This document shows positions 1,006 to 44,297 of a stretch of 44,297 nucleotides of DNA, one piece after another. The stretch's first letter is position 1; the number at the start of each line of letters is the position of its first letter. A model generated the notes under the pieces. That model made no database searches and was not told the origin of the DNA. It was given only the letters and a program-made list of their open reading frames with translations. Origin of the DNA: a virus; the IMG/VR virus record IMGVR_UViG_3300008954_000090, positions 1 through 44,297 of that record; one strand, 5' to 3'. Position numbers and translations under genes: made by a program.

Positions 1006-1395
1006 TTAAAATTTTGCTATACACCAAGGTGTATCATTATACATGCTTTTATCGCCTGTTGGATTAAAGTTAGGACGAGGTTGGTCAAAAGTATCTATTA
1101 AAGGGTCCCAATTTGATATTCTATCTAATCTAAAGAATTTCCATCCTGGAGTTTTTTCGGGTCTATCAGTCGCTCCTGCTGTTTGCCATGCACGTACAAC
1201 TGGATTACCTCGTTGGTTGCCCTTTAGTTTAGTTTCTCCTGCAGCTACAGGTTCAATTGTTCTATTCCCTGGATGTAGGGTCATATCTCCTGAATAATAA
1301 ATATTTACTACATTTCTGCCATCAATTGCACTACACACTTCTGCTCTATCTGCTGATTCTACAATTAATGTTTTTAATGTATTAAAAAGTTTCAT
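1006..1395 (-). CDS. WYL-like domain protein with putative capsid-targeting N-terminus
   Basis: A 129-residue protein. Residues about 20-100 follow the WYL-fold pattern: a beta-strand with VVNIYYSG, then R-x-IEP (GNRTIEPVA), then an alternating strand VVRAWQ, then PGWKFFRLDRI. This matches the usual order Y-x-x...R-x-I-x-P...V-R-A-[YWF]...F-R-L-D-R-I. WYL domains bind nucleic acid or nucleotide ligands and regulate transcription or defence systems. Here there is no HTH domain, so it is a stand-alone sensor-like module. The N-terminus MKLFNTLKTLIVES is a short amphipathic helix ending in I-V-E, like the tags described for the 23-27 kb island. It lies mid-operon, 13 nt downstream of the preceding gene. 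The WYL call is by pattern, not by search. Confidence 0.6.
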   Translation of the reverse strand: MKLFNTLKTLIVESADRAEVCSAIDGRNVVNIYYSGDMTLHPGNRTIEPVAAGETKLKGNQRGNPVVRAWQTAGATDRPEKTPGWKFFRLDRISNWDPLIDTFDQPRPNFNPTGDKSMYNDTPWCIAKF

Positions 1396-17370: not shown

Positions 17371-20300
17371 ATGGCTAACAATTCAAACAGAGTTTTTGTT
17401 TCTCCTGGTGTTTACACGTCAGAAAAGGATTTAAGTTTTGTATCTCAGAGTGTTGGGGTAACTACTTTAGGTCTTGCTGGTGAAACTTTAAGAGGACCAG
17501 CTTTTGAACCTATTTTTATAAGTTCATATGGTGATTTCACTACTTATTTTGGTGGTGTAAGTGCAGAGAAATATACAGACTCACAAATTCCTAAATATGA
17601 ATTATCGTATATCGCGAAATCTTATTTACAACAATCGAATCAATTATTTGTAACAAGAGTATTAGGGTACTCGGGTTATGACGCTGGACCATCATGGTCT
17701 ATAGTAACGGTGGGTGATTTAGATTGTGCAACCCTAGAACACGTATGTAATTTTCCAGGTTTATCTGGTCGTTCAACTTGTTGTGGTGGAGCAACAGGAG
17801 CAACTGAATCGTGTGACGTTAGTGTTACAGCTTACATTAACATAACAGGTAGTACAACTCATTATATGGGTAGAGGAGGAGATAGTGTTTTCGCTGTATT
17901 CTCAGGATATAGTTGGGTGGCTCAACATTTAGACAGACCTATAGAATTATATAATGGTAGTTCAACAACACTAAGAACAGATTTAAAACTAATGTATTCA
18001 CAACTTACTTCATACTTAAGTGTTTGTGACCACCCAAGTTTAGATGAAACTGGAGCCCCTACTTCGTTACCATCAAGTTCGTTATCGGGTACCTCATCAG
18101 GTAACCCACTTTCTGGTACAGGGATAGCTTATTCTTATGGATGTCATCAATGGACTAGTCTTGATAGTGGTTGTTCTGGAAGTACTGTTAGTACAGCTCA
18201 AACATTAAATTACCCAATACACCTTACTCCAAGTTCTACGTTTATTCCTTATTCAGCAGCGTCCAGAACTAGTAATAGTAACGCTTTAGGTTTATATAAT
18301 AGATTAGGTTCAGATTGTGATTATAGATGTAACGATAAAAATGATAGTTGGACTTATAATTTCTTTGATTATAATGATACAACACAAAGATATGTAGGAC
18401 GTTCAGTATTAGCCACTGTAGGTTCTTACGAGGGAGGCCAATCACACATCGCTACTGACTTATCGACTTCAGCAGAAACTTGTCTTTATAGTGCGGTTAC
18501 TTCAATCTCAACTTGTCAACTTACAGGTAAAACATTCTGTGATTACCATGATGTGGTTGTAGCAACTTTCCGTTCAAGAGGATTGAGTACTTTATCGTCG
18601 GGTGGACCTGAATATGAAATAACAGGAACAACACATGTAGAATTTGTATGTAGTGGAAGTACATGGCAACAAGTATTAAACGACCCATTCAGTAGTTTCG
18701 GTATGAGAACTAGAAACAAAGACGCTGAAGTAAGATGGTTTGATGTTTCAATGAATGAAACAAGTAAAAATTATATTAAGAGAGTATTCGGTGTAGGTAA
18801 TTTTGATAGAAATAGAAGACAAGTACCTATATTTGTTGAGGAGTCGTATCCAAAAATGTTAACCTATTTCTGGAAACAAGGTTATATTAGAGGTTTGAGA
18901 TGTGATTTATTAGACTTACCTTCATTTAGAGCAGCTAACAATACAGACACAATTGCGTTCTATCAAGAAAAATGGCAAACACCAGTTACACCATATATTG
19001 TTTCTGAATTACGTGGTTTCAAAGTATTCCAATTATTTAGATTCATAACTATACCAGATGGAAACGCAGCTAATAGGGCAGTTAAATTCTCAATAATCAA
19101 TATTTCATTCGAGAGAAAAGAATTTGATATTATAGTGAGAGACTTTAACGATACCGATGCAAACCCTATAATCTTAGAGAAATACACAAGATGTAGTTTA
19201 AACCCAACACTTAACACTTACGTTGGTAAAAAGATAGGAACTAGTGATGGACAATACGAATTAAATAGTAGATACGTAATGTTAGAAATTAATCCAGATG
19301 TTGAGGTTGATGATACATTATGGGACGCTCTACCTTGTGGATTCGAAGGATACCAATTTAGAAAGTACGATTCAAGAAGAGGACCAACGGTTATTTATAA
19401 GGCAAAATATGACTCACCAGGTGAAGTTATATTTGACCCACCATTTGGAGTGGCTACAGGAAATAACCAGATAATTAGTGCGGGAGATAAAGTAAGAAAA
19501 GTTTACTTAGGTATTTCAGACACTAGAGGAATTGACCCTGACTTCTTTGAGTATAAAGGAAAACAAGCACCAACAGATAAATGTGCAGATGGTACGGGTG
19601 AAGACTGGCCTTGTTTAACACAAGGATTCCACATGGACAAAGATGCAACATGTGCTTACACACAAGGAGAACTTTGTAAAATTATAAATTGTGGTACCGA
19701 GTGTTTTGTAGGTTCTTCAGGAACTACAGACCAGTTTGTTGTGGGAGACGCTACATTTAGAGCTGAGCCTACTTTGAATACTGACCCATATTATAGATTA
19801 AATTCTAGAAAATTCACCGTATTACCATATGGTGGTTTCGATGGATGGGACATTTATAGAAAAACAAGAAGTAATTCTGACGCTTATAGAAGAGGACAAA
19901 GTGGTTATTTGGCAGGAGCTTGTATAACTACAGAATATCCAAACGCGACTGGAGACGGTTCATTCAAACCAATTGGTACTTTAGATGCAAGTACAGATTA
20001 TTATCCATACTTAGACGCGATACAAACATTCGCTAATCCTGAAGCAGTTAACATTAACGTGTTCGCTACACCAGGTATTGATTATGTTAATAACAGTAAC
20101 TTGGTAGAGGAGTCGATAGAAATGGTAGAGGATGATAGAGCAGATTCACTTTATGTGACTACTACACCTGATTATAACATGTTTGTAGCGACACCTAGTG
20201 ATATAGATAGTATAATTTCACCAGTTGAAGCAGTAGATAATTTGGAGAATGTAGGTATAGATTCTAACTATACAGCTACGTATTATCCTTGGGTATTAAA

Positions 20301-20883
20301 CAACGACACTGAAAATAATGTTAGAATTTATTTACCACCAACATATGAGGTGATGAGAAATATAGCATTAACAGATAATATTTCGTTCCCTTGGTTCGCA
20401 TCAGCGGGTTACACTCGTGGTATTGTGAACGCGGTTAAAGCTAGAAAGAAACTTACATTAGATGAAAGGGATACTTTATATCAAGGAAGAATAAATCCAA
20501 TCGCAACTTATTCAGATGTTGGTACGGTGATTTGGGGTAACAAAACTTTACAAGTTGCACAATCAGCGTTAGATAGAATAAATGTAAGAAGATTACTTCT
20601 ACAAGCAAGAAAACTGATATCAGCTGTGGCTGTTAGATTACTGTTCGAACAAAATGACGAACAAGTAAGAAATGAATTCTTAGACTTAGTAAACCCAATT
20701 TTAGATTCAATTAGAAGAGAAAGAGGACTTACAGACTTTAGAGTTGTATTATCTGACGACCCACAATTAATAGACCAAAACACATTAGAAGGTAAGATTT
20801 ACATTAAACCTACTAGGTCATTAGAATTCATTAGTGTTGAATTCCTAATAACTCCAACAGGAGCTTCGTTTGAAAACGTTTAA
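17371..20883 (+). CDS. 18: Contractile tail sheath protein, T4 gp18-like, with very large insertion
   Basis: A 1170-residue protein. The N-terminus (FVSPGVYTSEKDLSF...GLAGETLRGPAFEPIFISSYGDFTTYFGG, residues ~9-60) is diagnostic of phage sheath proteins. The C-terminal ~150 residues carry the conserved sheath end (INPIATYSDVGTVIWGNKTL, then ALDRINVRRLLLQARKLI, then LVNPILDSIRRERGLTDFRVV and the final SLEFISVEFLITPTG strand). T4 gp18 is 659 residues. The extra length lies mainly between about residues 115 and 470, a S/T/G/C-rich surface region with clusters such as CCGG. These insertions probably decorate the outside of the sheath. It is followed after 12 nt by an acidic protein gene. Confidence 0.92.
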   Translation: MANNSNRVFVSPGVYTSEKDLSFVSQSVGVTTLGLAGETLRGPAFEPIFISSYGDFTTYFGGVSAEKYTDSQIPKYELSYIAKSYLQQSNQLFVTRVLGYSGYDAGPSWSIVTVGDLDCATLEHVCNFPGLSGRSTCCGGATGATESCDVSVTAYINITGSTTHYMGRGGDSVFAVFSGYSWVAQHLDRPIELYNGSSTTLRTDLKLMYSQLTSYLSVCDHPSLDETGAPTSLPSSSLSGTSSGNPLSGTGIAYSYGCHQWTSLDSGCSGSTVSTAQTLNYPIHLTPSSTFIPYSAASRTSNSNALGLYNRLGSDCDYRCNDKNDSWTYNFFDYNDTTQRYVGRSVLATVGSYEGGQSHIATDLSTSAETCLYSAVTSISTCQLTGKTFCDYHDVVVATFRSRGLSTLSSGGPEYEITGTTHVEFVCSGSTWQQVLNDPFSSFGMRTRNKDAEVRWFDVSMNETSKNYIKRVFGVGNFDRNRRQVPIFVEESYPKMLTYFWKQGYIRGLRCDLLDLPSFRAANNTDTIAFYQEKWQTPVTPYIVSELRGFKVFQLFRFITIPDGNAANRAVKFSIINISFERKEFDIIVRDFNDTDANPIILEKYTRCSLNPTLNTYVGKKIGTSDGQYELNSRYVMLEINPDVEVDDTLWDALPCGFEGYQFRKYDSRRGPTVIYKAKYDSPGEVIFDPPFGVATGNNQIISAGDKVRKVYLGISDTRGIDPDFFEYKGKQAPTDKCADGTGEDWPCLTQGFHMDKDATCAYTQGELCKIINCGTECFVGSSGTTDQFVVGDATFRAEPTLNTDPYYRLNSRKFTVLPYGGFDGWDIYRKTRSNSDAYRRGQSGYLAGACITTEYPNATGDGSFKPIGTLDASTDYYPYLDAIQTFANPEAVNINVFATPGIDYVNNSNLVEESIEMVEDDRADSLYVTTTPDYNMFVATPSDIDSIISPVEAVDNLENVGIDSNYTATYYPWVLNNDTENNVRIYLPPTYEVMRNIALTDNISFPWFASAGYTRGIVNAVKARKKLTLDERDTLYQGRINPIATYSDVGTVIWGNKTLQVAQSALDRINVRRLLLQARKLISAVAVRLLFEQNDEQVRNEFLDLVNPILDSIRRERGLTDFRVVLSDDPQLIDQNTLEGKIYIKPTRSLEFISVEFLITPTGASFENV

Positions 20884-20895
20884 AAACAATAGAAA

Positions 20896-22287
20896 ATGAG
20901 TAGACATATTTTTAAAAAATCACAAGTAGAAAAAGAGTTAGGTCTTAAGTCTGCATTATATGAAACCTACGGGAAGAAATCACAAGAGATAGTTGTTAGT
21001 GAAGAACAGCTTGGTAGGTTATTAGAGAAGTGTGGTGACCCTCAAGAGGAACAATTAGTTCCACCAGCAAATACAAATGTAGAAGATTCAGAGGATTTGA
21101 CTATAGCAATACTCGATGAGGTTGAGGATGAATTAGACTTAGATGAAACTTTTGACGATTATGAGTCTATAGACCATTCAGATAGAGACGAGTTCGACGG
21201 AAGAAAGTCTAGGGTGGTTGGTGTTTATAGAAATGATTCAGACCCAGACCAAAATTTTGAGGAGAGTTTTGACTATGAGAAAGGAGAATTTAATCCTGGT
21301 GATGGGGCTAATGATGAATCTTATGATGGGCATCATTTCAAACATGACGTTATAGGAGCATATGATGATGATTTAACAGGTAAATCTCGTAGAGGTGAAG
21401 TTTATGAAGATTCTGAAGGTGAAGAAACTTATAACTATGGAGAGGACGAAGGAAGAGATGAGTATAGACTAAAACATAGTGATATGAGTAGAAGTCATAG
21501 ACATAATCTTGAAAAAGATATGGATTATGATGAAGACCATGAATTTAGACATGAAAGAGGTACTCATTTTTATGAATCAGTAGAAAATTTGTTATGGAAA
21601 AAAGATTTAGCGAAAGTTCATTTTTTAGTCGCGGAAACTTACGAATCTATTAGAAAAAGTATTTTAAAGGAAAGAGTAAGAGAATTAGATAGAAGAGATT
21701 ACACTCTAAAACCTGGAATGTTAAGTGAAGCACAAGATGAATGGAGAGGACACAATCCAGGAGCTTCAGCAGCTGCAGGAATTGAGAATATAATCGACAA
21801 CATTAAAAAAGCTTGGCATTTCTTAAAAGACGGAAAAACTAGAAAACAAATTGAGAATACTTTGGTGAAGTTAGATAATTTCATGTCTTACACTGCAGAA
21901 TTAGTTGGTTCTGGGAGAGACCAGAGAGCGTCGAGAGGTTATGACCAAGTTACAAGACCACTACCTCATCCAGAAGTAGACGAGCCTGAAGAATTAGAGG
22001 ATATTGATGATGAAATATCTATAAATGAAAGTTGGACGAAAGCTTTAAGATTAGAAGAAGCAACACTTAGTGAAGAACAGTGGATGCAAAAAGCTGATGA
22101 TGATATAGAAAGAAGAGGTACTGAAGGTGTTTTTCACAGATATTGTGTAGATAAGGGATATAAAAATGGTTGTTCAAAAGGATGTTGGGAACATGCAGAA
22201 GATGCAATTGCTGACGGATACTTAGATGGTAGTTTATGGGGTAGAAGAGTCGGTTTAGCGAAAGCATATTGTGAGTCCCGCAGATAA
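20896..22287 (+). CDS. Acidic hypothetical protein with conserved-looking C-terminal Cys/Trp module
   Basis: A 463-residue protein. Residues ~65-225 are extremely D/E-rich with H, Y and R (DNA-mimic-like or calcium-binding-like composition). Residues ~230-345 look helical (LLWKKDLAKVHFLVAETYESIRKSI). The final ~70 residues (WMQKADDDIERRGTEGVFHRYC...GCSKGCWEHAEDAIADGYLDG) form a compact module with C-x8-C-x3-C spacing that could bind metal. No family is recognised. It directly follows the sheath gene and precedes the microprotein gene and terminator, so it is probably late-expressed and virion- or assembly-related. Confidence 0.6.
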   Translation: MSRHIFKKSQVEKELGLKSALYETYGKKSQEIVVSEEQLGRLLEKCGDPQEEQLVPPANTNVEDSEDLTIAILDEVEDELDLDETFDDYESIDHSDRDEFDGRKSRVVGVYRNDSDPDQNFEESFDYEKGEFNPGDGANDESYDGHHFKHDVIGAYDDDLTGKSRRGEVYEDSEGEETYNYGEDEGRDEYRLKHSDMSRSHRHNLEKDMDYDEDHEFRHERGTHFYESVENLLWKKDLAKVHFLVAETYESIRKSILKERVRELDRRDYTLKPGMLSEAQDEWRGHNPGASAAAGIENIIDNIKKAWHFLKDGKTRKQIENTLVKLDNFMSYTAELVGSGRDQRASRGYDQVTRPLPHPEVDEPEELEDIDDEISINESWTKALRLEEATLSEEQWMQKADDDIERRGTEGVFHRYCVDKGYKNGCSKGCWEHAEDAIADGYLDGSLWGRRVGLAKAYCESRR

Positions 22288-22808: not shown

Positions 22809-23249
22809 ATGAAATTATCATTATTTGACTTCGACAATACCTTAGTCGAAACACCCTACGAAGACAGTCCTTATCTGGACACACCTGAAAGTTTAGACCC
22901 AAACATATGGAACTTCAAATTTAACAAAGAAACAATTAAAGAATATTTTAATGAATCGTCTAACAATTCTACTATTACAGTGTTACTAACAAATAGAATA
23001 GATAGTGTGGAAGAAAACGTTTTAGATATTCTAGATAATGAAAAAGTTATATTTGATGAAAAAATGTTTATAGAGGGAAAGGAAGGAGATAGGTCCAAAG
23101 GAAAGAGATTGGAGAAACTCTTAGAAAAGTACCCCGAAACTACGGAGATAGAGTATTGGGAAGATAAGGACAAACACATTAAGGATGTGGTGAGTACTTG
23201 TGAAAAATACCCAAACATAAAACTTAACATCAATAAAATAATTACTTAA
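22809..23249 (+). CDS. HAD-superfamily protein, RNA-repair (SAK)-like
   Basis: A 146-residue protein starting MKLSLFDFDNTLVETP: HAD motif I with D7 and D9, then T11. Motif II is VLLTNR and the acidic motif IV is YWEDKDKH. The segment ETPYEDSPYLDTPESLDPNIWNF resembles HAD_SAK_1 proteins (DTP..P...W), which are linked to RNA-repair gene clusters. It should be a phosphatase or phosphotransferase. It has its own host-type promoter element (22779-22786) and overlaps the 3' end of the convergent kinase gene by 8 bp (23242-23249). The substrate is unknown; nucleic-acid 3'-end healing is a reasonable guess given the kinase neighbour. Confidence 0.7.
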   Translation: MKLSLFDFDNTLVETPYEDSPYLDTPESLDPNIWNFKFNKETIKEYFNESSNNSTITVLLTNRIDSVEENVLDILDNEKVIFDEKMFIEGKEGDRSKGKRLEKLLEKYPETTEIEYWEDKDKHIKDVVSTCEKYPNIKLNINKIIT

Positions 23250-23895
23250 TTTTTTCTATATTTTCTGATGGCCTATCAGATAAATCTATTAATTCTTTAT
23301 TGTCTACAGTCCATACATTATCAAAGATAGGAATCATATTTCTCATATTATCTTTAACTTTTTGGTGGTATTGTGCTACCATTTCAGGTGGTAAACTTCT
23401 AGGTCTTTCACTATTTCTTAATTGAGCCAATTCTAGAGGTGTCCTCACATATACTAGTGTTGTATTAAATCCGTTTTCTTTTGCAAGAGACCATACGTCT
23501 TTCATAACTTGTTCCTGACCCCCGCCTGCATCATACACCACATTTACTGATTGGTCTCTTTCTTGTTCTAGGAATTGTTTTAGGAATTTAACGGTTAGGT
23601 TTCTAGGGTCAGAGGTAGTGTAGGTTTTGTCGAGTATTTCCTGATACCCTTCAGGTGTGGATATTTTTTCCTCCCACTCATCACCCCATAATTTTTTAGC
23701 TGTCATTACACGGACTTGGTCTACATTAAATTCCTTCACATTATCTAAATTAATTAGATTTTTAGTTATAAAACTTTTTCCCGCACCGGGACCACCAGCA
23801 ATAACTACAAAGTTATTGGTTGGATTAGCAAACCCCACCACTTTTTCTTCTTTTAAGAATTCTTCTCGTAATATTTTTTTAATTAAGTTTCTCAT
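23242..23895 (-). CDS. P-loop kinase, polynucleotide 5'-kinase/zeta-toxin-like, with putative capsid-targeting N-terminus
   Basis: A 217-residue protein. Walker A is GGPGAGKS (34-41). After it comes N-V-D59-Q-V-R62, matching in spacing the D and R of the T4 Pnkp kinase NRDDYR motif. A later ELAQLRNSERPRSLPPEMV (~155-173) parallels T4 Pnkp ELVKRNSKR....P..V. These point to a 5'-OH polynucleotide kinase, with zeta-toxin-like kinases as the alternative. The N-terminus MRNLIKKILREEFLKEE precedes the kinase fold by ~27 residues and looks like an added tag (I-L-R-E). The start overlaps the upstream stop as ATGA, so it is coupled to the 23892-24473 gene. It carries no phosphatase domain; HAD phosphatases are encoded separately nearby. 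Confidence 0.75.
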   Translation of the reverse strand: MRNLIKKILREEFLKEEKVVGFANPTNNFVVIAGGPGAGKSFITKNLINLDNVKEFNVDQVRVMTAKKLWGDEWEEKISTPEGYQEILDKTYTTSDPRNLTVKFLKQFLEQERDQSVNVVYDAGGGQEQVMKDVWSLAKENGFNTTLVYVRTPLELAQLRNSERPRSLPPEMVAQYHQKVKDNMRNMIPIFDNVWTVDNKELIDLSDRPSENIEKIK

Positions 23896-24473
23896 CTTAG
23901 CCCTATCCAGTTTCTCTTAAAAACAATATTTTCTTCCTTGGTTACTTCAAAATTATCTACCTCTACTAGGTCCCCATAATCAGAATCATTATGTTCACTA
24001 TCTTCTATCCAGTCTGTCGGGGAAGACTCTACTATCTCTAAAGCCTCCTCTTTTGTTCGAACACCTACCATGGTACCCCACCCAGTTCTAGATTCAAATA
24101 CTTCTTCAACATAGTCCATTGATATTTCAAATTTAGGTATTTCCACTAATTTGATAGGTCCTACACTAAAGTCTCTAGAATATGACCCGTTACTTATAAA
24201 GGCTTCTACAAACCAGTATATCATATCAAAAGTGTACCGTTGTAGCTCCGTTGGGTCTGCACCCATTAATTTTAGTATTCCAATAAGGTGTTCTGAAAGG
24301 TTTGGGTTGTGCACTGGTTTATGTTCTACTTGAATCGTACTAAGAAATTTATCCCAACCATCTAGCTGTTGCATCTTAGTGAAAACTATTCTAAGTCTCT
24401 TCTCAACATCTTGTGGAGCCCATGTTGGTGATTGTGTTTCTTCTATTAGTATCTCCTTAATTTTATTTCCCAT
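23892..24473 (-). CDS. Hypothetical protein with putative capsid-targeting N-terminus
   Basis: A 193-residue protein of unknown family. It starts MGNKIKEILIEETQSP, a short amphipathic helix ending I-L-I-E, like its neighbours. The body is mixed alpha/beta with FEISMDYVEEVFESRTGWGTMVGVRTKEEALEIVESS in the C-terminal half, then an acidic stretch and a final FKRNWIGLR. No catalytic motif is obvious. It is the middle gene of a three-gene minus operon (24817 to 23242) with 1-4 nt overlaps on both sides, so it is expressed together with the kinase. Confidence 0.65.
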   Translation of the reverse strand: MGNKIKEILIEETQSPTWAPQDVEKRLRIVFTKMQQLDGWDKFLSTIQVEHKPVHNPNLSEHLIGILKLMGADPTELQRYTFDMIYWFVEAFISNGSYSRDFSVGPIKLVEIPKFEISMDYVEEVFESRTGWGTMVGVRTKEEALEIVESSPTDWIEDSEHNDSDYGDLVEVDNFEVTKEENIVFKRNWIGLR

Positions 24474-24817
24474 TACTTATTTTCAATTAATAGTTCACCT
24501 AGGACCTCAATCTTACCCATAATTTCTTGAAATTCAATTTGTTTCATATCCATATTTTCGTTGGTTGATTGATATAACCTATCTAAAAGTTTTTTATATT
24601 CAGTTAATGATTTATCTTTATCAAACTTACCTTCAGATGCTTTTTCATAATAAGGTAATTTTACTTTAAAGTGGTGATAAGTTAACATGGAATTACCACC
24701 TTTCTTTTTTGCACTATCAGTTATCTTTTCTGCTCCTTTTCCTCTTCCTTCCGCAAAGTCCTCCATCTCTTCCTCTGAAATAGCTTCTCTTAATATGTTT
24801 TTAATAAGATTTTTCAT
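24473..24817 (-). CDS. Small hypothetical protein with putative capsid-targeting N-terminus
   Basis: A 114-residue, charged, largely helical protein. It starts MKNLIKNILREAISEEE, almost identical to the first 11 residues of the kinase two genes downstream (MRNLIKKILRE) although the rest is unrelated. Residues ~95-112 (IEFQEIMGKIEVLGELLIEN) form a hydrophobic helix. First gene of the minus operon. Its stop overlaps the next start by one base (TAATG). A putative late promoter motif lies immediately upstream (24822-24830). Function unknown; size and composition would suit a T4-style internal head protein. Confidence 0.65.
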   Translation of the reverse strand: MKNLIKNILREAISEEEMEDFAEGRGKGAEKITDSAKKKGGNSMLTYHHFKVKLPYYEKASEGKFDKDKSLTEYKKLLDRLYQSTNENMDMKQIEFQEIMGKIEVLGELLIENK

Positions 24818-24821
24818 ATAT

Positions 24822-24837
24822 TATAAATATATTTATA
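24822..24837. promoter_or_regulatory. Back-to-back putative late promoter motifs (divergent)
   Basis: TATAAATATATTTATA contains ATATTTATA on the plus strand (24829-24837, 16 nt before the ATG at 24854) and on the minus strand (24830-24822, 4 nt before the ATG at 24817). The overlap makes a 16-bp palindrome in the shared gap of the two tagged operons. Confidence 0.45.
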
Positions 24838-24853
24838 AACAAACAATTACTAG

Positions 24854-25666
24854 ATGTTAAACGAACAAATAAAAAGAATTAAGAATTTAATGTTATTAAA
24901 AGAACAGGATGAGGATAGTTTATCCCGTTATATGGATTCCACATATTTAAAAACACCTGAACAAGCGGGAGTGGATGAGTCTGAAAGTGATAGAATAGTG
25001 TTCGATACAATAAACGACGCTATAGAGCACAAGATGAAGTTGGTTATGTTAAGACCAGAATATGTGTCTGCAGCACGATACCTTATTGATAAAAAAGGTT
25101 ATACGGGTTACATATTAGTTGGTACCGTAATAGGTTTTCCAGGTGGTGATAGTGAACATGGAGTTAAAATGGACGAAGCTCTAGAAGCAATTCAAAATGG
25201 GGCTGACGAACTAGACTTTGTAGTAGATTATAAAGCTTTTAAGAACGGCAATCTAGATAAAGTAATGAAAGAAGTGGCTGAAGGAACCGCTATAGGGATA
25301 GATAAAGGAAAAGTGGTTAAGTGGATTATAGAATCTGCAGCTTTAACCGATGATGAGGTCGCACAACTTACAGGTTTAATTAGAGATATTGTAATAGAGG
25401 CTGTTGGTAATGAAAAAGCAAGAAATGTTTTTGTAAAAACCTCTACAGGATTCTTTAGTCCAGAGGGTGGGGGACCAGGAGGTGCAACACCAGAAGCTGT
25501 TAATATTATGAAGTCCAATTCAGGTCCACTACAAGTTAAAGCGTCGGGTGGTATTTATAGTAAAGAAGACGCTGAAAGAATGATAGATGCTGGAGCTACA
25601 CGACTAGGTACTTCTGCAGCGGTAGACATTATTAAAGGAAATAAAATAGAAAATTCAGATTACTAA
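24854..25666 (+). CDS. deoC: Deoxyribose-phosphate aldolase (DeoC) with N-terminal tag
   Basis: A 270-residue class I aldolase that splits 2-deoxyribose-5-phosphate into acetaldehyde and glyceraldehyde-3-phosphate. Diagnostic segments: VGTVIGFPGG (89-98), GADELDFVVD with D121, FVKTSTGF with the Schiff-base lysine K195, GGATPEAVNIM, and VKASGGI with K229. All expected catalytic residues are present. An extra ~18 residues at the N-terminus (MLNEQIKRIKNLMLLKEQ) precede the fold and resemble the helix-plus-L-x-E tags of the adjoining genes. The stop overlaps the next start (TAATG, 25664-25668), coupling it to the deoxyribosyltransferase-like gene, which is a sensible pathway partner. Confidence 0.92.
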   Translation: MLNEQIKRIKNLMLLKEQDEDSLSRYMDSTYLKTPEQAGVDESESDRIVFDTINDAIEHKMKLVMLRPEYVSAARYLIDKKGYTGYILVGTVIGFPGGDSEHGVKMDEALEAIQNGADELDFVVDYKAFKNGNLDKVMKEVAEGTAIGIDKGKVVKWIIESAALTDDEVAQLTGLIRDIVIEAVGNEKARNVFVKTSTGFFSPEGGGPGGATPEAVNIMKSNSGPLQVKASGGIYSKEDAERMIDAGATRLGTSAAVDIIKGNKIENSDY

Positions 25667-26556
25667 TGAACACAAGAAAAATTTTAAAAGAGTTTGTCGA
25701 AGACAAAACAACAATCAATGATGAAATAGCTTATTTGTCCAGAGACCAAAGAGCAGAATTAAAAAAAGGATTAATTAGTGCTTTAAATAATACAACAGAA
25801 GAAACAGAGTCTGTTGAAGATTTAGCAGAAATTTCATATGGGGGTATCCCTGAATTAAAAGCGGATGGTTTATTTTCTGGACTAAAAAAATGGTTCAAAA
25901 GATTTTTAACCGACAAAGCCTCTAATTTTTTAGTAGATGCAAGTGCATCTGAAATGGAAGACACTATTAAATTAATAGATGCGTTAGACCCTTACGACTT
26001 AAATGGAATATTCACTCCTAGAGCTATTTATTTGGGTGGGGGGATAGATTTTGCTGAGGACGCTACTTCTTGGAGGAGTAAGGTGGAAGACTTTTTTGGT
26101 CCAGACCATGTGGTTAAAGATGATAGACTTTTAAGGTTGGTAACCACAGGACAAATGGATTTTAAGGGTTTAGAGACTCCAGCTATTTTAAATCCTATGA
26201 GAGCGGAAACAGTTAGAGAAGATGATTTAGAATTCCAAGACCTATTCAAACAATGGAAAAGTAATGAATTAAGTAATGAAAACTTTGAACAATTTAGAGA
26301 AAAAATTAGAGAACAGATAGTTGTTCAAGACCTTTATATGTTAAAAGTTTGTGACACTAATTTAATTTGTTTTGACGGTACAGCTGGAGCTGGGACCTTT
26401 GGTGAAGCACAGTTTAGTGCACTTAAAAATTCACAAGTCTTTATTTGGTTAACGAACGGAATGAAATTATCTAATGTATCACCATGGATGATGCCCTCAA
26501 TAACCAAAGTGTTAGTGGGTGACGAACTATGGCCATTCCTACAAAATTTTAAATAA
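25666..26556 (+). CDS. Nucleoside 2-deoxyribosyltransferase-like protein with N-terminal tag
   Basis: A 296-residue protein. The C-terminal ~175 residues have the NDT pattern: IYLGGGID (121-128), WR (136-137), then D...L...D segments around 222-230 and GTAGAGTFGEAQFS (238-251), where E247 would be the nucleophile glutamate in the usual G-T-x-x-E context. NDT enzymes move or hydrolyse deoxyribose between bases; relatives also cleave nucleotide-derived molecules. The N-terminus MNTRKILKEFVED is a short tag (I-L-K-E). Residues 15-115 are helical and unrecognised. It is coupled by TAATG to deoC. Substrate specificity cannot be read from sequence. Confidence 0.7.
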   Translation: MNTRKILKEFVEDKTTINDEIAYLSRDQRAELKKGLISALNNTTEETESVEDLAEISYGGIPELKADGLFSGLKKWFKRFLTDKASNFLVDASASEMEDTIKLIDALDPYDLNGIFTPRAIYLGGGIDFAEDATSWRSKVEDFFGPDHVVKDDRLLRLVTTGQMDFKGLETPAILNPMRAETVREDDLEFQDLFKQWKSNELSNENFEQFREKIREQIVVQDLYMLKVCDTNLICFDGTAGAGTFGEAQFSALKNSQVFIWLTNGMKLSNVSPWMMPSITKVLVGDELWPFLQNFK

Positions 26557-26557
26557 C

Positions 26558-27208
26558 ATGATTCATCAAAGAATTCAAAAATCTTTACTAGTGGAACTAG
26601 CTAATGTTAATAAGTTAGTATTATTAGACTTAGACGACACTTTGGTTGAACCTGCTGAGATTTATATCTATAGACAGTTTCCTGGTGAGGAGGAGGTCGC
26701 TTTAACACCAATGGAGTATGCACAGGAAAAAGTAACACCAGAAAACCAACAATATTACGACTACAGAGACTTTATGGACCCTAATACGGTAGAACTATCA
26801 ATAAAGACCGGGGAACCCATAGTTGCAAATTTAGAGGTAATGGACGACTTTATAAATAGGGGTTATAGTGTTGGTATTTTAACCGCAAGGTCAGAAGAAG
26901 ATACCATTCATAGTACACTTAAGGATTGGTTGATGTATAGGAATAAAGATGGGGAACTGGTTCCTTTAGGAAATAGGTTGTCTAGAGAGTTAGTTTTTGC
27001 GGTTAATGACCCTAAAACCAGTTCACAATTAAGGTCTAACTCGGACTACACTAAGAAAGCAGAAGTAATAGATATGTTGTTAGATGAGTTCGATGAGATT
27101 ATATTTTTAGATGACGATAATAAGAATCTAAAAGCTATAAGGCAATTAAAAGCTAATTTAGAAAGAAGCAAAGCAAATAAATTATTTATAATGAAAGCTA
27201 AGATTTAA
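26558..27208 (+). CDS. HAD phosphatase, polynucleotide 3'-phosphatase-like, with N-terminal tag
   Basis: A 216-residue protein. Motif I is LLDLDDTLVEP (D24, D26, T28), motif II is GILTARSEED (T109), then KK at 166-167 and motif IV FLDDDNKN (D185-D187). Order and context (GYSVGILTAR...; KKAEVIDMLL; IIFLDDDNKNLKAIR) parallel the phosphatase domain of T4 Pnkp, which lies after its kinase domain; here it is a separate gene. The start chosen is 26558, 1 nt after the preceding stop. The upstream ATG at 26519 would overlap the previous gene by 38 nt and bury the tag MIHQRIQKSLLVELAN. That tag ends L-V-E, like the other island genes. Confidence 0.75.
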   Translation: MIHQRIQKSLLVELANVNKLVLLDLDDTLVEPAEIYIYRQFPGEEEVALTPMEYAQEKVTPENQQYYDYRDFMDPNTVELSIKTGEPIVANLEVMDDFINRGYSVGILTARSEEDTIHSTLKDWLMYRNKDGELVPLGNRLSRELVFAVNDPKTSSQLRSNSDYTKKAEVIDMLLDEFDEIIFLDDDNKNLKAIRQLKANLERSKANKLFIMKAKI

Positions 27209-27833: not shown

Positions 27834-28472
27834 TTAAGAATCCTCCTTTTTGGAGGATTTTTTATTTAAAGGAGCTTTATTCTTCGTTTTAGGGTAGGAT
27901 TCCTTAGACCAATTACACTTTAGTGTTTTATCTACTATAATAAGATATCTGTGTTTACGAGTACGAGGTCTCCATTCCCCAGCTTTTCCTTTAACAGGTC
28001 CCCTTTGATGTTTTTTAAATTCCCCATCACCCAAATCAAACCAAAAGTCTTTTTTCTTAGATGTTAAACCATAATAACCAAAGTTAGTAGCTTGATATAT
28101 GTAACCCGTATGTAGACTAGAATCTGCATAAGATAGAATTGCTCTCACATCAGTATCTTTTTTAAGGTGTCGTATGCAAGAAGAAACAAACCAAGATAAG
28201 AAATTTTTTTCATGAATTGTTGGTACTACACATAAACGACCTAATTCTAAAATACCAGTTTGATTTTTGGGGGATAAACCAAAACAACCCTTAACTGTTT
28301 CAGGTACTGAAGGTGAATGAAAAATACATAGGGAGATTAGTTTATCTCCGTCGAACGCTCCATAATTAAATCCACACCTAAAACCACTCTTTTCTTTATG
28401 GAGATAGTGATTATATTTTAATAGAGGATTGCATTCCTCTTTTTTTATTCTTTTTATGATATATTTTTTCAT
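27834..28472 (-). CDS. Mom-like DNA-modification protein (GNAT fold)
   Basis: A 212-residue protein. Residues 75-135 carry the Mom/GNAT signature: LELGRLCVVP (75-84), then FLSWFVSSCIRHL, then AILSYADSSLHTG (111-123) and YIYQATNFGYYG (124-135). The S-Y-A-D...H-x-G-x-[IV]-Y-Q-A-x-N-[FW]-x-Y-x-G series is what I know from the phage Mu Mom family, which carbamoylmethylates adenine in DNA to block restriction. The C-terminus is very basic (KKSSKKED), suited to DNA binding. It is antisense within the tail gene cluster, with its last codons forming the terminator of the tube gene. Some family members are of uncertain chemistry, so the exact modification is inferred. Confidence 0.75.
   Translation of the reverse strand: MKKYIIKRIKKEECNPLLKYNHYLHKEKSGFRCGFNYGAFDGDKLISLCIFHSPSVPETVKGCFGLSPKNQTGILELGRLCVVPTIHEKNFLSWFVSSCIRHLKKDTDVRAILSYADSSLHTGYIYQATNFGYYGLTSKKKDFWFDLGDGEFKKHQRGPVKGKAGEWRPRTRKHRYLIIVDKTLKCNWSKESYPKTKNKAPLNKKSSKKEDS
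27839..27863 (+). terminator. Intrinsic terminator after tail tube gene, overlapping Mom-like gene end
   Basis: AATCCTCC (27839-27846), TTTTT loop, GGAGGATT (27852-27859), then further T's. On the plus strand it ends tail tube transcription. On the minus strand the same bases encode the last codons of the Mom-like protein. Confidence 0.8.
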
Positions 28473-29508: not shown

Positions 29509-31815
29509 ATGTTTAAATTAAAACTTCAGTTATTAATAGAAAGAATCTTATCGGGGGCAAAACCTTATATTGCGTCCCATCCTGAGTTAGGTGTACCCCT
29601 AGGTATATTCAACTACAAAGACGAACCCGACTATAATTCTAGAGTAAATTCCATTTTAAAATACGGAACCAAAGGTAATCCCCTTTCTAATAAATTAGCT
29701 AAATTTTTCGGAATAGAACTACCAATACCTTCTTATGTGGAAGGGGAAGATGATAAGATTGATATGGACAAGATTAATGAGGTTCTCACAGGAAAAAGAA
29801 AATCGTATGAACTTACCAAAAAAGAAAGAGTAGAATACGAAAGAATCCTCAAGAACACCAAAGCAATTGAGAAAAGTACAGAAAGCACTAGTAATCTTAC
29901 CGCTTTACAAAATGTAGCTTTAGGTAAATCTGCAGAGTTTTACAAAGATATACAACAACTAATAACATCGGGTACTGATAGTCAAGCAAAAATGGAGGCT
30001 CTCTTAAGTTTGACTAATAGAGCTTTAGAAAAAGAAGGTACAATCCGAAAAGACGTTGTTAAGAACCTTGGACTCCAAGGACAAATGCAAAAGACATTTC
30101 AAGAGAATATTGCAGACGCTGCTATATTAGCTGCGGACGCAGGAATTAATTTTGAAGAAACCTTAAAGGCGGTGGTAACTTTAAGTGAGGTAATTGGTAG
30201 GAATCTATCTATTTCTGATGATACAATGTCACGATTAGCTATGTTTGGTAAAGCTACAGAATTAGGAGCTGATGGAACAGCAAGAATAGTACAAGGATTT
30301 GACAAAATGGGTCTAGGAGTAGACGCTGCACTAGATAAAGGAATGGAAATGAGAGACGTGGCGGTTGGAATGGGACTTAATGTTGGTAAATTTATGAGAA
30401 CTGTTGCGGATAACATGAATACCATCAACGCTTACAACTTTAAAGACGGTGTCCAAGGGTTTACACGAATGGCAGCTCAAGCACAACGACTTGGTTTCGG
30501 AATAGATAAAGTTAAAAATTTAATGGATAAAGTTATAGACCCAGAAGGGGCTATAGGTTTAGCTGCGAATTTACAAGTAATTGGTGGGGCAGTTGGAGAT
30601 TTAGCCGACCCATTTAAATTAATGTATATGGCTACTTCCGATTTAGAAGGGTTACAAGATGCGATGATTAGAGCAGGAGAATCAGCTATTATGTTTAATG
30701 AGGAGACTGGAGAAATGGGAATCTCTCCAACAGAAATGAGAAGAATGAGAGCAATGGCGGAACAATTAGGGGTTAGTTATGAGGACTATGTTACTTCAGT
30801 CAAAATGGCCAAACAGGAGACTATCGCGATGTCTCAGATGAATCTAGCTGCGTTTGCAGGGTCTGAAGACGCAGAACAACTACAACAATTTGCCGCAAGT
30901 ATGTCTCAATTTAAAGACGGTAAATATCAAATAGAATTAGAACCAGGGAAATTTACAGCGTTAGAAGACTTACAATCAGGACAAATAGAATTATTAAGAC
31001 AATCAATGAAAAAAGATGACGACAAAGATGCAGCTATGTCGGCAGTTGAGGAAAAAGAAATTTTATTTAGGTCGATGACCGCTATGGAGGCAATCCAGAA
31101 AGAAGGTCTTAAAGCACAACTTGCAACAGAATTAACATTTGCAAAAGAAGTTGGTCCTGAATTGTCGGAAGCTATTATTAGAGGATTTGAGGCAAGTGAT
31201 TTTGTAGGTACTTTTGGTAAATTAATGGGTACAGGTTTAAAAGAAGGTTTAACGGAAATTATAAGTGGAACTGGTGATATGGCGGCAATTGAATCGTCCG
31301 CGGCAATGTTTGGGGACGAACTTATTGGGGCGTTAGGTGGTATATTTGGAGAGGACGCGAGTAGTTATTTTAGAGCAGGATTAGAGTTCTTTAATCTTGC
31401 AAATGCAGAAGGGGACGCGGCCATAGTAGAGGACTATTTCACAAAAGGAACAACTACTATATCAAACGAATTTGGAAAAGTAAGAACCTCCCCTAATGAT
31501 ATAATAGCCGCATTTGATGAAACCCAAATTAATAAATCATTACCAGCGGGTGCAATTGCAGGGTCCAACCTAACTATAGAGGACTTACTTCCACAAACAG
31601 AAGGTGGTGGAGGAGGAACAGACAAAATGTCGGTAGATGTTAATTTGTCAGGAAATGCTAATATCTTATCTCCTAATATGAATATAGACGTTAAAAACTT
31701 ATTAGATAATAATTTAGTACTTATGTGGCTAAAAGATAAACTAGACCAAACTAATCTTACAGGTAAACCAACACCTAAACAAGAACAACAAACTGGTGGT
31801 CCAGCTTTTGGGTAG
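29509..31815 (+). CDS. Tail tape measure protein
   Basis: A 768-residue, mostly helical protein. Residues ~180-440 are alanine/methionine-rich amphipathic helices with hydrophobic stretches (for example ADAAILAADAGINFEETLKAVVTLSEVIG, LQVIGGAVGDLADPFKLM). The C-terminus has a glycine linker (EGGGGGTDK) followed by SVDVNLSGNANILSPNMNIDV and a final helix. The segment SPNDIIAAFDE...LPAGAIAG resembles the conserved C-terminal region of many tape measures. Position between the gp26-like/chaperone genes and the giant baseplate genes agrees. It sets tail length and is probably ejected with the DNA. T4 gp29 is 590 residues. Its N-terminus (MFKLKLQLLIERILSG) also has an L-I-E helix but runs on directly into the protein body. 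Confidence 0.75.
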   Translation: MFKLKLQLLIERILSGAKPYIASHPELGVPLGIFNYKDEPDYNSRVNSILKYGTKGNPLSNKLAKFFGIELPIPSYVEGEDDKIDMDKINEVLTGKRKSYELTKKERVEYERILKNTKAIEKSTESTSNLTALQNVALGKSAEFYKDIQQLITSGTDSQAKMEALLSLTNRALEKEGTIRKDVVKNLGLQGQMQKTFQENIADAAILAADAGINFEETLKAVVTLSEVIGRNLSISDDTMSRLAMFGKATELGADGTARIVQGFDKMGLGVDAALDKGMEMRDVAVGMGLNVGKFMRTVADNMNTINAYNFKDGVQGFTRMAAQAQRLGFGIDKVKNLMDKVIDPEGAIGLAANLQVIGGAVGDLADPFKLMYMATSDLEGLQDAMIRAGESAIMFNEETGEMGISPTEMRRMRAMAEQLGVSYEDYVTSVKMAKQETIAMSQMNLAAFAGSEDAEQLQQFAASMSQFKDGKYQIELEPGKFTALEDLQSGQIELLRQSMKKDDDKDAAMSAVEEKEILFRSMTAMEAIQKEGLKAQLATELTFAKEVGPELSEAIIRGFEASDFVGTFGKLMGTGLKEGLTEIISGTGDMAAIESSAAMFGDELIGALGGIFGEDASSYFRAGLEFFNLANAEGDAAIVEDYFTKGTTTISNEFGKVRTSPNDIIAAFDETQINKSLPAGAIAGSNLTIEDLLPQTEGGGGGTDKMSVDVNLSGNANILSPNMNIDVKNLLDNNLVLMWLKDKLDQTNLTGKPTPKQEQQTGGPAFG

Positions 31816-43766: not shown

Positions 43767-43976
43767 ATGGACAATCTAGAAAAAAAATTAAATAATTACT
43801 TAGGTGTAGAAAAAACCAAAGATATACAAACTGAAGACGAATCAAAAGTTGAGGAGGAAGAGATTTGTGATTTAAAAACTGGGGAATGTTATACTTTAAG
43901 AAGTAGAGACGGATTAGTAGAGAAGGTTAATAAAACTATGATGACCGAAGATGGTCGCACATTACTAAATGGATAA
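43767..43976 (+). CDS. Small acidic hypothetical protein
   Basis: A 69-residue protein with an acidic, helical N-terminal half (MDNLEKKLNNYLGVEKTKDI...ESKVEEEE) and a beta-rich C-terminal half (ICDLKTGECYTLRSRDGLVEKVNKTMMTEDGRTLL) containing a C-x6-C pair. No family is recognised. Size and acidity recall T4 prohead core protein gp67, which would fit the acidic next gene, but this is only suggestive. Its stop overlaps the next start as TAATG. Confidence 0.6.
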   Translation: MDNLEKKLNNYLGVEKTKDIQTEDESKVEEEEICDLKTGECYTLRSRDGLVEKVNKTMMTEDGRTLLNG

Positions 43977-44297
43977 TGAACTTAGATAGAATTTTAGAAG
44001 AAGAACTCAAACGATTTAACCAAATAGGTAACTATGTTGGTACTTTACATGAACAATCCGCTGTTGGGATTGGAACTGGCTCAGGATTTGTAAATCCACA
44101 GGGTGGTTCTGTAGTGGAACAAGAAGACCCAGAAGGAGACGCACCTGAAGACGAAGGAGAAGATGTAGGAGTCGAAGGTGGTGAAGAAGTAGAAGACTTT
44201 GGAGCGGAGATTGAAGGAGAAATTGAAGGTGAAGATGAAGGTGAAGGTGAAATTGAAGGTGAAATTGAAGGAGAAATTGAAGGAGACATAGAAGGGG
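43976..44297 (+). CDS. Acidic low-complexity protein, partial, with tag-like N-terminus
   Basis: ATG at 43976, overlapping the preceding stop by one base, open to the right edge (107 codons visible). It starts MNLDRILEEELKRFNQIG, an I-L-E/L-E-E helix like the tags in the island. After ~40 residues it becomes almost entirely D, E and G (runs of GEIEGE). Candidates are a prohead core/scaffold component or an internal head protein; the C-terminus beyond the window would decide. Confidence 0.65.
   Translation, partial: MNLDRILEEELKRFNQIGNYVGTLHEQSAVGIGTGSGFVNPQGGSVVEQEDPEGDAPEDEGEDVGVEGGEEVEDFGAEIEGEIEGEDEGEGEIEGEIEGEIEGDIEG
44206..44297 (+). repeat. 12-bp tandem repeat within coding sequence
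   Basis: Imperfect repeats of GAAATTGAAGGT/A, in frame, encoding the GEIE units of the partial acidic protein; they continue past the window edge. Such arrays are prone to length change. Confidence 0.8.

Follow-up and report, generated by a model that had tools for sequence, protein, structure and literature searches.

In phage T4, the internal proteins IPI-III and Alt carry a short N-terminal propeptide of 7–19 aa that is cut by the prohead protease gp21 at [LI]xE; the targeting propeptides of the internal proteins measure 10–19 residues and that of the major capsid protein gp23 65 residues, and ten residues of a targeting propeptide are enough to load foreign enzymes (PMC9026906). N-terminal residues of phage P1 DarB likewise suffice to carry a foreign protein into the head (PMC9024508), and the large heads of SPN3US and phiKZ contain tens of packaged proteins (53 protein types in SPN3US), among them head ejection proteins that lose their N-terminal propeptides to a prohead protease cleaving behind E (PMC10052503). 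Here, we analysed the IMG/VR phage record IMGVR_UViG_3300008954_000090 (44,297 bases, hereafter the window), in which six neighbouring genes and two outlying ones encode proteins starting with a short tag that ends in [IL]xE. The initial annotation had named these eight N-termini, all of which were confirmed in the window sequence, and had proposed that repair and nucleoside enzymes are packaged and injected behind a T4-like cut tag. In our best reading, the tags are prohead-protease-cleavable and probably capsid-targeting, and they greatly enlarge, in a group of large marine phages, the internal-protein system known from T4; we consider it likely that the majority of high-scoring tags are propeptides which the prohead protease removes from head cargo.

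The system resembles that of T4 in the form of its putative propeptides, in the S77-family protease and the gp23-type capsid protein with LxE↓A of the relatives (arrows mark cut or predicted cut positions) and in varied predicted cargo behind a putatively removable tag. It differs in that tens of families instead of four known cargos are concerned, in several unrelated tags swapped between orthologs, in many catalytic kinds of predicted cargo and in giant proteins punctuated by LxE; packaging has been demonstrated in T4 only. The Dar proteins of P1 lack a common tag sequence and go with another type of protease and capsid, while SPN3US and phiKZ differ by the motif AxE, by mostly long propeptides and by nine cleaved substrates found.

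The window contains tail, baseplate, DNA polymerase B and helicase genes, and its A-rich start regions without Shine-Dalgarno sites are Bacteroidota-like, from which we infer a Bacteroidota host. A DNA polymerase search resulted in 32 loci with 52–79% identity, from which ten contigs of 63–309 kb were taken whole, giving together with the window 1822 proteins in 838 families; family clustering ignored the first 30 residues of each protein. The contigs are metagenomic and for the most part fragments, and their gene starts are predictions of a home-made caller that learns the upstream context and places the N-terminus, without regard to the tag, at the longest permitted ATG start. A first caller assuming Shine-Dalgarno sites was dropped, as its N-termini came out too short. 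As controls of modest size, 207 Bacteroidota proteins and 116 proteins of three Cellulophaga phages without S77 were used. Salinibacter phages, the nearest cultured phages in the DNA polymerase comparison, were uninformative, and Flavobacterium phage immuto was reached via tail-tube and capsid searches. Apart from that, a phage DnaK (G002:225736-227601) had its closest cellular relatives found in marine Marinoscillum/Flammeovirgaceae (about 64% identity), which may hint at the host group.

As a genome fragment, the window holds no protease or capsid gene; the initial annotation had suggested looking for the prohead protease gene, and a gp21-type protease was present in relatives. Peptidase_S77 (PF03420) scored above cut-off in six of 15 clade records in the first search (G002, G004, G005, G006, G008 and G010) and later also in G016, G017, immuto and T4, and it was absent from the three control Cellulophaga phages. 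In six relatives, the S77 gene adjoins scaffold and capsid genes. In the major capsid protein of six relatives, (H/F)LINE↓A is invariant and lies around residues 57–61, directly before the conserved shell sequence, and the scaffolds bear several LxE sites. The T4 record shows FLTE↓A at residue 65 of gp23, MAKINELLRE↓S in gp24 and MLKEQLIAE↓A in gp22; LINE↓A of the relatives corresponds in sequence to the cut position of gp23.

For five window families (kinase, HAD, DeoC, nucleoside-deoxyribosyltransferase-like (NDT-like) and WYL-like), 63 distinct junction contexts were aligned gap-free to the core. Position P1 was E in all 63 and P3 was I or L in 59, while neighbouring tag positions were variable. 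The E was invariant in 19/19 distinct contexts of the kinase (E16 also in a 6-sequence alignment), E and P3 I/L were found in 16/16 contexts of the HAD protein, whose remaining tag residues vary, and in 7/7 of the NDT-like protein, and E with P3 I in 13/13 of the WYL-like protein. Kinase junctions read MRNLIKKILREEFLKE↓EKVVGF, MLLKEIEKIKRLMFVE↓SRVVGF, MLTEQINRMKKLMLVE↓AKMVTF and ..MVTESQIEKILMTE↓AKVVGF, with three unrelated tag types among orthologs, and those of the HAD protein ..FILKE↓LANLNRL, ..QPLNE↓LAKTNRL, ..NIISE↓SVNQNRL and ..TLLSE↓DNNTNKL. The idea of a single tag was rejected, as several types were found. Tags of the cassette enzymes are 9–17 aa long, and core alignments start after them. 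For DeoC and the kinase, we rejected the view that the tag belongs to the enzyme fold: the best PDB alignment of DeoC starts at residue 23, and in the kinase AlphaFold2 placed residues 1–16, mostly helix with a predicted local distance difference test (pLDDT) value <50, before a confident core. The best Foldseek match of this core was polynucleotide kinase 4gp6 (E 3e-8), and zeta toxins are similar too. Further recurrent tag types on unrelated proteins are MKIIITExQ.., MKKIIKLTESDL..RV(I/L)xE and MKNLFI(I/L)xEEEKxRILxLHE..LxEQ (e.g., G004:62718-63074, G004:287929-291326 and G006:214326-215144).

Since raw [IL]xE counts per genome were raised only mildly, family-level and ortholog tests were used. 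With one protein per family, [IL]xE at residues 4–25 occurred in 40%, compared with 22–24% in windows inside the clade proteins and 16% at Bacteroidota N-termini (n = 207); the stricter [ILV][IL]xE[QASTE] reached 11.1% at N-termini vs 0.7–2.5% internally and 1.0% in Bacteroidota. Among families with at least three members, 34/116 had [IL]xE in every member at residues 4–39, the counts for equally long windows further on being 13, 15, 8 and 9. The N-terminal sites are K/R-rich upstream, with I/L/V at P4 and Q/S/A/T/E at P1' (Q, z = 11). A context model anchored on [ILV]xE and cross-validated by family gave a score of at least 3 to 16–19% of unseen N-termini, 0.4–2.5% of internal segments and 3–7% of bacterial N-termini; an unconstrained expectation-maximisation (EM) motif search was discarded, having converged on the start methionine. 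In the three Cellulophaga phages, [IL]xE stood at 23% N-terminally vs 26% internally, with 2.6% at a score of at least 3. Altogether, 154/636 clade families (24%) were model-positive vs 17/323 (5%) of the Bacteroidota and S77-less phage proteins (P = 8e-15); the initial annotation had proposed such an enrichment test, and its set of eight proteins proved too small: about 6–26% of the proteins per contig score as tagged. Chance and the amino-acid bias of AT-rich phage N-termini, inflated by paralogy, might produce such figures, and in fact [IL].K increases at N-termini too, and there are a few evident false positives. No comparable excess was found for control motifs such as [IL]xD, [VFYM]xE and [IL]xN, however, [IL].D being unchanged and [VFYM].E even decreasing at N-termini; [IL]xQ does show an excess, with lower counts. 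Together with the per-family counts, the cross-validated model, the two negative controls, flat in the S77-less phages, and the invariant junction, this motif specificity led us to reject chance, which we regard as very improbable.

The highest excess of [IL]xE[QS] sites was found in two giant proteins of 2007 and 3039 aa, followed by scaffolds. The giants hold a repeated module, (N/S)PxLxxGDxI, and [IL]xE[QSEDA] lies within 16 residues upstream of 17/20 modules (chance 5.6%); the remaining three have LTEN, LQEH and LQEH, so that [IL].E precedes 20/20. A conserved E, in almost every case as part of L(N/Q)E, closes each of fifteen modules whose mean identity is 24%, but module boundaries were placed at LxE sites, and the independent evidence is the upstream count. 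The giants also combine several unrelated domains (PAP2, PPK2 and a weak HD, plus the kinase in L172). An open frame in contig G016 (L172), at least 1545 aa long, has the cassette kinase as its final domain, preceded by the same junction as in the standalone protein (LYERLLRE↓EKVVGF). One domain forms a separate tagged protein in G004 (RVINES↓DLKVGTGKKP) and lies inside a giant of G001 behind HLNES↓DPKKGTGKKP; another, a separate protein in G002 (NIISE↓YAISDTLGDLGA), follows TLLE↓T in the fusions of G001 and G003. Among standalone-vs-internal matches, the boundary carries [ILV]xE in 30/58, a count without a matched chance rate. By their sequence layout, the giants resemble polyproteins that the head protease would cut up. 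Module giants with L(N/Q/R)E↓Q spacers are L157 (G001:177123-183146), L158 (G002:5366-14485), L159 (G002:19995-27368) and L172:2-4636. The fold of the repeated module is at best a small beta-barrel (SH3/chromo-like), with no match at E<=0.001. Polyvalent proteins (Iyer et al. 2017, PMC5512222) are similarly multi-domain and in some cases processed, and packaging and delivery along with the DNA are predicted for them, but they are linked to their own peptidase domains, whereas the clade giants bear repeated prohead-protease-type sites between modules. Pfam scans of four giants at E<=0.001 revealed no MPTase, ART or ParB-type domain, and membership of the polyvalent proteins is not claimed.

Tagged proteins include DeoC, the polynucleotide kinase (PNK)-like kinase, HAD, NDT-like and WYL-like proteins and many unknowns, and the tag also occurs outside the cassette. 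Tagged genes were clustered in three of the six largest contigs (G004, G005 and G006; P<=0.003) and more weakly in G003. In one protein scored as tagged (L112:14360-16027, G005), the N-terminal half holds complete Fe/Mn superoxide dismutase domains and is followed by a C-terminal half of unknown kind. Tagged peptidoglycan hydrolases were also identified, namely L065:15759-17123 (G001; M23, PG-binding and SLT) and a lysozyme (L064:8293-8910, G001); they may be head-packaged rather than lysis enzymes. With these, the proposed scope of repair and nucleoside enzymes turned out too narrow; a delivery system wider than the T4 internal proteins agrees with the tens of tagged families, their packaging being presumed. 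Untagged are DNA polymerase, a UvsW-like helicase, gp32-, UvsX-, DnaB- and exonuclease-like proteins, ThyA and DnaK as well as terminase, portal, sheath, tube and baseplate proteins, several of these names coming from sequence appearance and gene order, not from family searches. An equal occurrence of the tag on replication enzymes, which would speak against packaging, was looked for, and the checked replicative and tail proteins were untagged.

Basic amphipathic helices are frequent interaction motifs, cleavage is itself a prediction, and several tag types could reflect several partners, so that the tags might instead be docking peptides for another assembly or host partner (replisome, membrane or infection compartment), with [IL]xE as the end of a helical motif and no cut site. 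This would not explain why [IL]xE occurs in scaffolds, between the modules of polyproteins and where the capsid pro-sequence ends, nor why E keeps a constant spacing to the core without any variation although the helix gets replaced, and the replicative proteins lack the tag; we hold docking to be unlikely. Somewhat less probable still appears to us a cut by the prohead protease within core scaffolding only, the enzymes aiding head building or getting trapped with no injection: T4 IPIII influences head assembly as well (PMC9026906) and the acidic tagged proteins look like core proteins, but enzymes that catalyse nucleotide, nucleic acid, peptidoglycan and oxidative-stress reactions are implausible as scaffold.

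The cultured phage immuto (vB_FspM_immuto, host Flavobacterium sp. LMO8) has a head gene order similar to that of the clade. A cluster of tagged genes lies directly upstream of its terminase gene (NC_055915, L153-L156, 102–119 kb); it includes a gene related to window gene 24473-24817 (MRLLELLRE↓AKEAIEDFAKTRGEGAAKI) and one for a 5'(3')-deoxyribonucleotidase (MKKVMGNLADLLLEES). KNV73_gp082 and gp087 also belong to the tagged proteins of immuto, and four of its proteins have MENFDLKKFLVEN-type tags in common.

Several points weigh against packaging behind cleavable tags. Up to 81 proteins score as tagged in one contig, a large number beside the 53 protein types of SPN3US heads, and some of those scored are plainly not cargo, e.g., a NUMOD3 protein (a false positive). 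One DeoC ortholog has E at P3, gene starts depend on the home-made caller, the window itself is without protease and capsid genes, and cleavage and virion location are deduced from sequence. Finally, the clade-trained model at a score of at least 3 marks 6.6% of immuto vs 6.8% of bacteria; simple motifs do separate them, and since the model gives no lift over bacteria, the extension to immuto rests on simple motif counts and inspection. The T4-like reading of the initial annotation nonetheless gains from S77 in the relatives, the [IL]xE sites of capsid and scaffold, the invariant junction E, the exchangeable tags and the lack of enrichment in S77-less phages; its part on virion presence, cleavage and injection stays a prediction.

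For packaging behind cleavable tags, we infer core binding or targeting, cleavage, packaging in the virion and injection. The tagged proteins would be expressed late, and a mostly basic amphipathic helix of about 9–25 residues would bind the growing prohead core and recruit each protein. At head maturation, the gp21-type S77 protease would cut behind [IL]-x-E and free the folded enzyme inside the head, from which it would exit together with the DNA. Many enzymes would share one address system with exchangeable tags, and some cargo would travel as giant polyproteins that are cut up at LxE↓Q sites within them. We see an even chance that this amounts to a code for cargo loading used generally by large Bacteroidota phages, with tags on about a fifth of gene families and protease-diced polyproteins as an injected metabolic, repair and cell-wall toolkit. 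Neither a description of such a system nor virion proteomics on these phages was found in the literature searched, which did not cover subscription literature. If true, proteins delivered with phage DNA could be read from sequence via a cuttable label, many 'hypothetical' phage proteins would gain predicted roles, and heads would deliver catalytic kits of DeoC, polynucleotide kinase, deoxynucleotidase, superoxide dismutase and cell-wall hydrolases. Natural exchangeable tags would also join the very short list of head-loading signals (T4 internal proteins, P1 DarB), and cultured immuto makes the idea directly testable.

Table. Tagged and candidate tagged genes of the window, with predicted tags and context-model scores
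Feature	Position	Strand	Remarks
P-loop kinase (PNK/zeta-like)	23242-23895	-	N-terminus MRNLIKKILREE
Kinase N-terminal tag	23848..23895	-	16 aa, MRNLIKKILREEFLKE; predicted cut after E16, alternative E11
Kinase core, predicted cargo	23242..23847	-	Pfam AAA_33, Zeta_toxin; Foldseek 4gp6
Unknown protein	23892-24473	-	tag MGNKIKEILIEE at 24438..24473; score 5.3
Unknown protein	24473-24817	-	N-terminus MKNLIKNILREA; tag MKNLIKNILRE at 24785..24817; score 8.1
DeoC	24854-25666	+	tag MLNEQIKRIKNLMLLKE at 24854..24904; E17 invariant in 8/8 contexts
NDT-like protein	25666-26556	+	N-terminus MNTRKILKEF; tag MNTRKILKE at 25666..25692
HAD protein	26558-27208	+	tag MIHQRIQKSLLVE at 26558..26596
WYL-like gene	1006-1395	-	tag MKLFNTLKTLIVE at 1357..1395; score 5.9
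Acidic gene, cut by window end	43976-	+	MNLDRILEEE; region 43976..44053 with two sites, ILE at 8 and LHE↓Q at 26
Candidate tagged protein	20896-22287	+	tag region 20896..21003; VSE at residue 36; score 7.7
Weak candidate, 768-aa protein	29509-31815	+	29509..29541, MFKLKLQLLIE; score 3.8; possible false positive

The two unknown proteins differ in their relatives: no homolog was found for 23892-24473, whereas homologs of 24473-24817 are tagged too, in G004 (MKELIKKLLREE) and in immuto (MRLLELLRE). The HAD and NDT-like proteins have low model scores alone (-0.3 and 0.9, respectively), their tags being supported by the ortholog comparison; the NDT-like family assignment is weak, and a longer open frame of the HAD gene begins at a GTG at 26519. 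Orthologs of the acidic gene hold both sites behind differing tags (NLHEQ, PLNEQ, SLSEQ). In the family of 20896-22287, length varies between 204 and 649 aa and 4/6 members score as tagged, while the N-terminus of 29509-31815 is retained in its two nearest relatives only. Untagged in the same block are the HAD_SAK_1 gene (22809-23249) and a Mom-like gene (27834-28472), the latter encoding a DNA modification protein (Pfam PF25680, E 3e-27) in the late gene block. The tail sheath protein (17371-20883, 1170 aa) showed sheath-family matches restricted to its C-terminal quarter, and its remainder may be a large insertion or extension.

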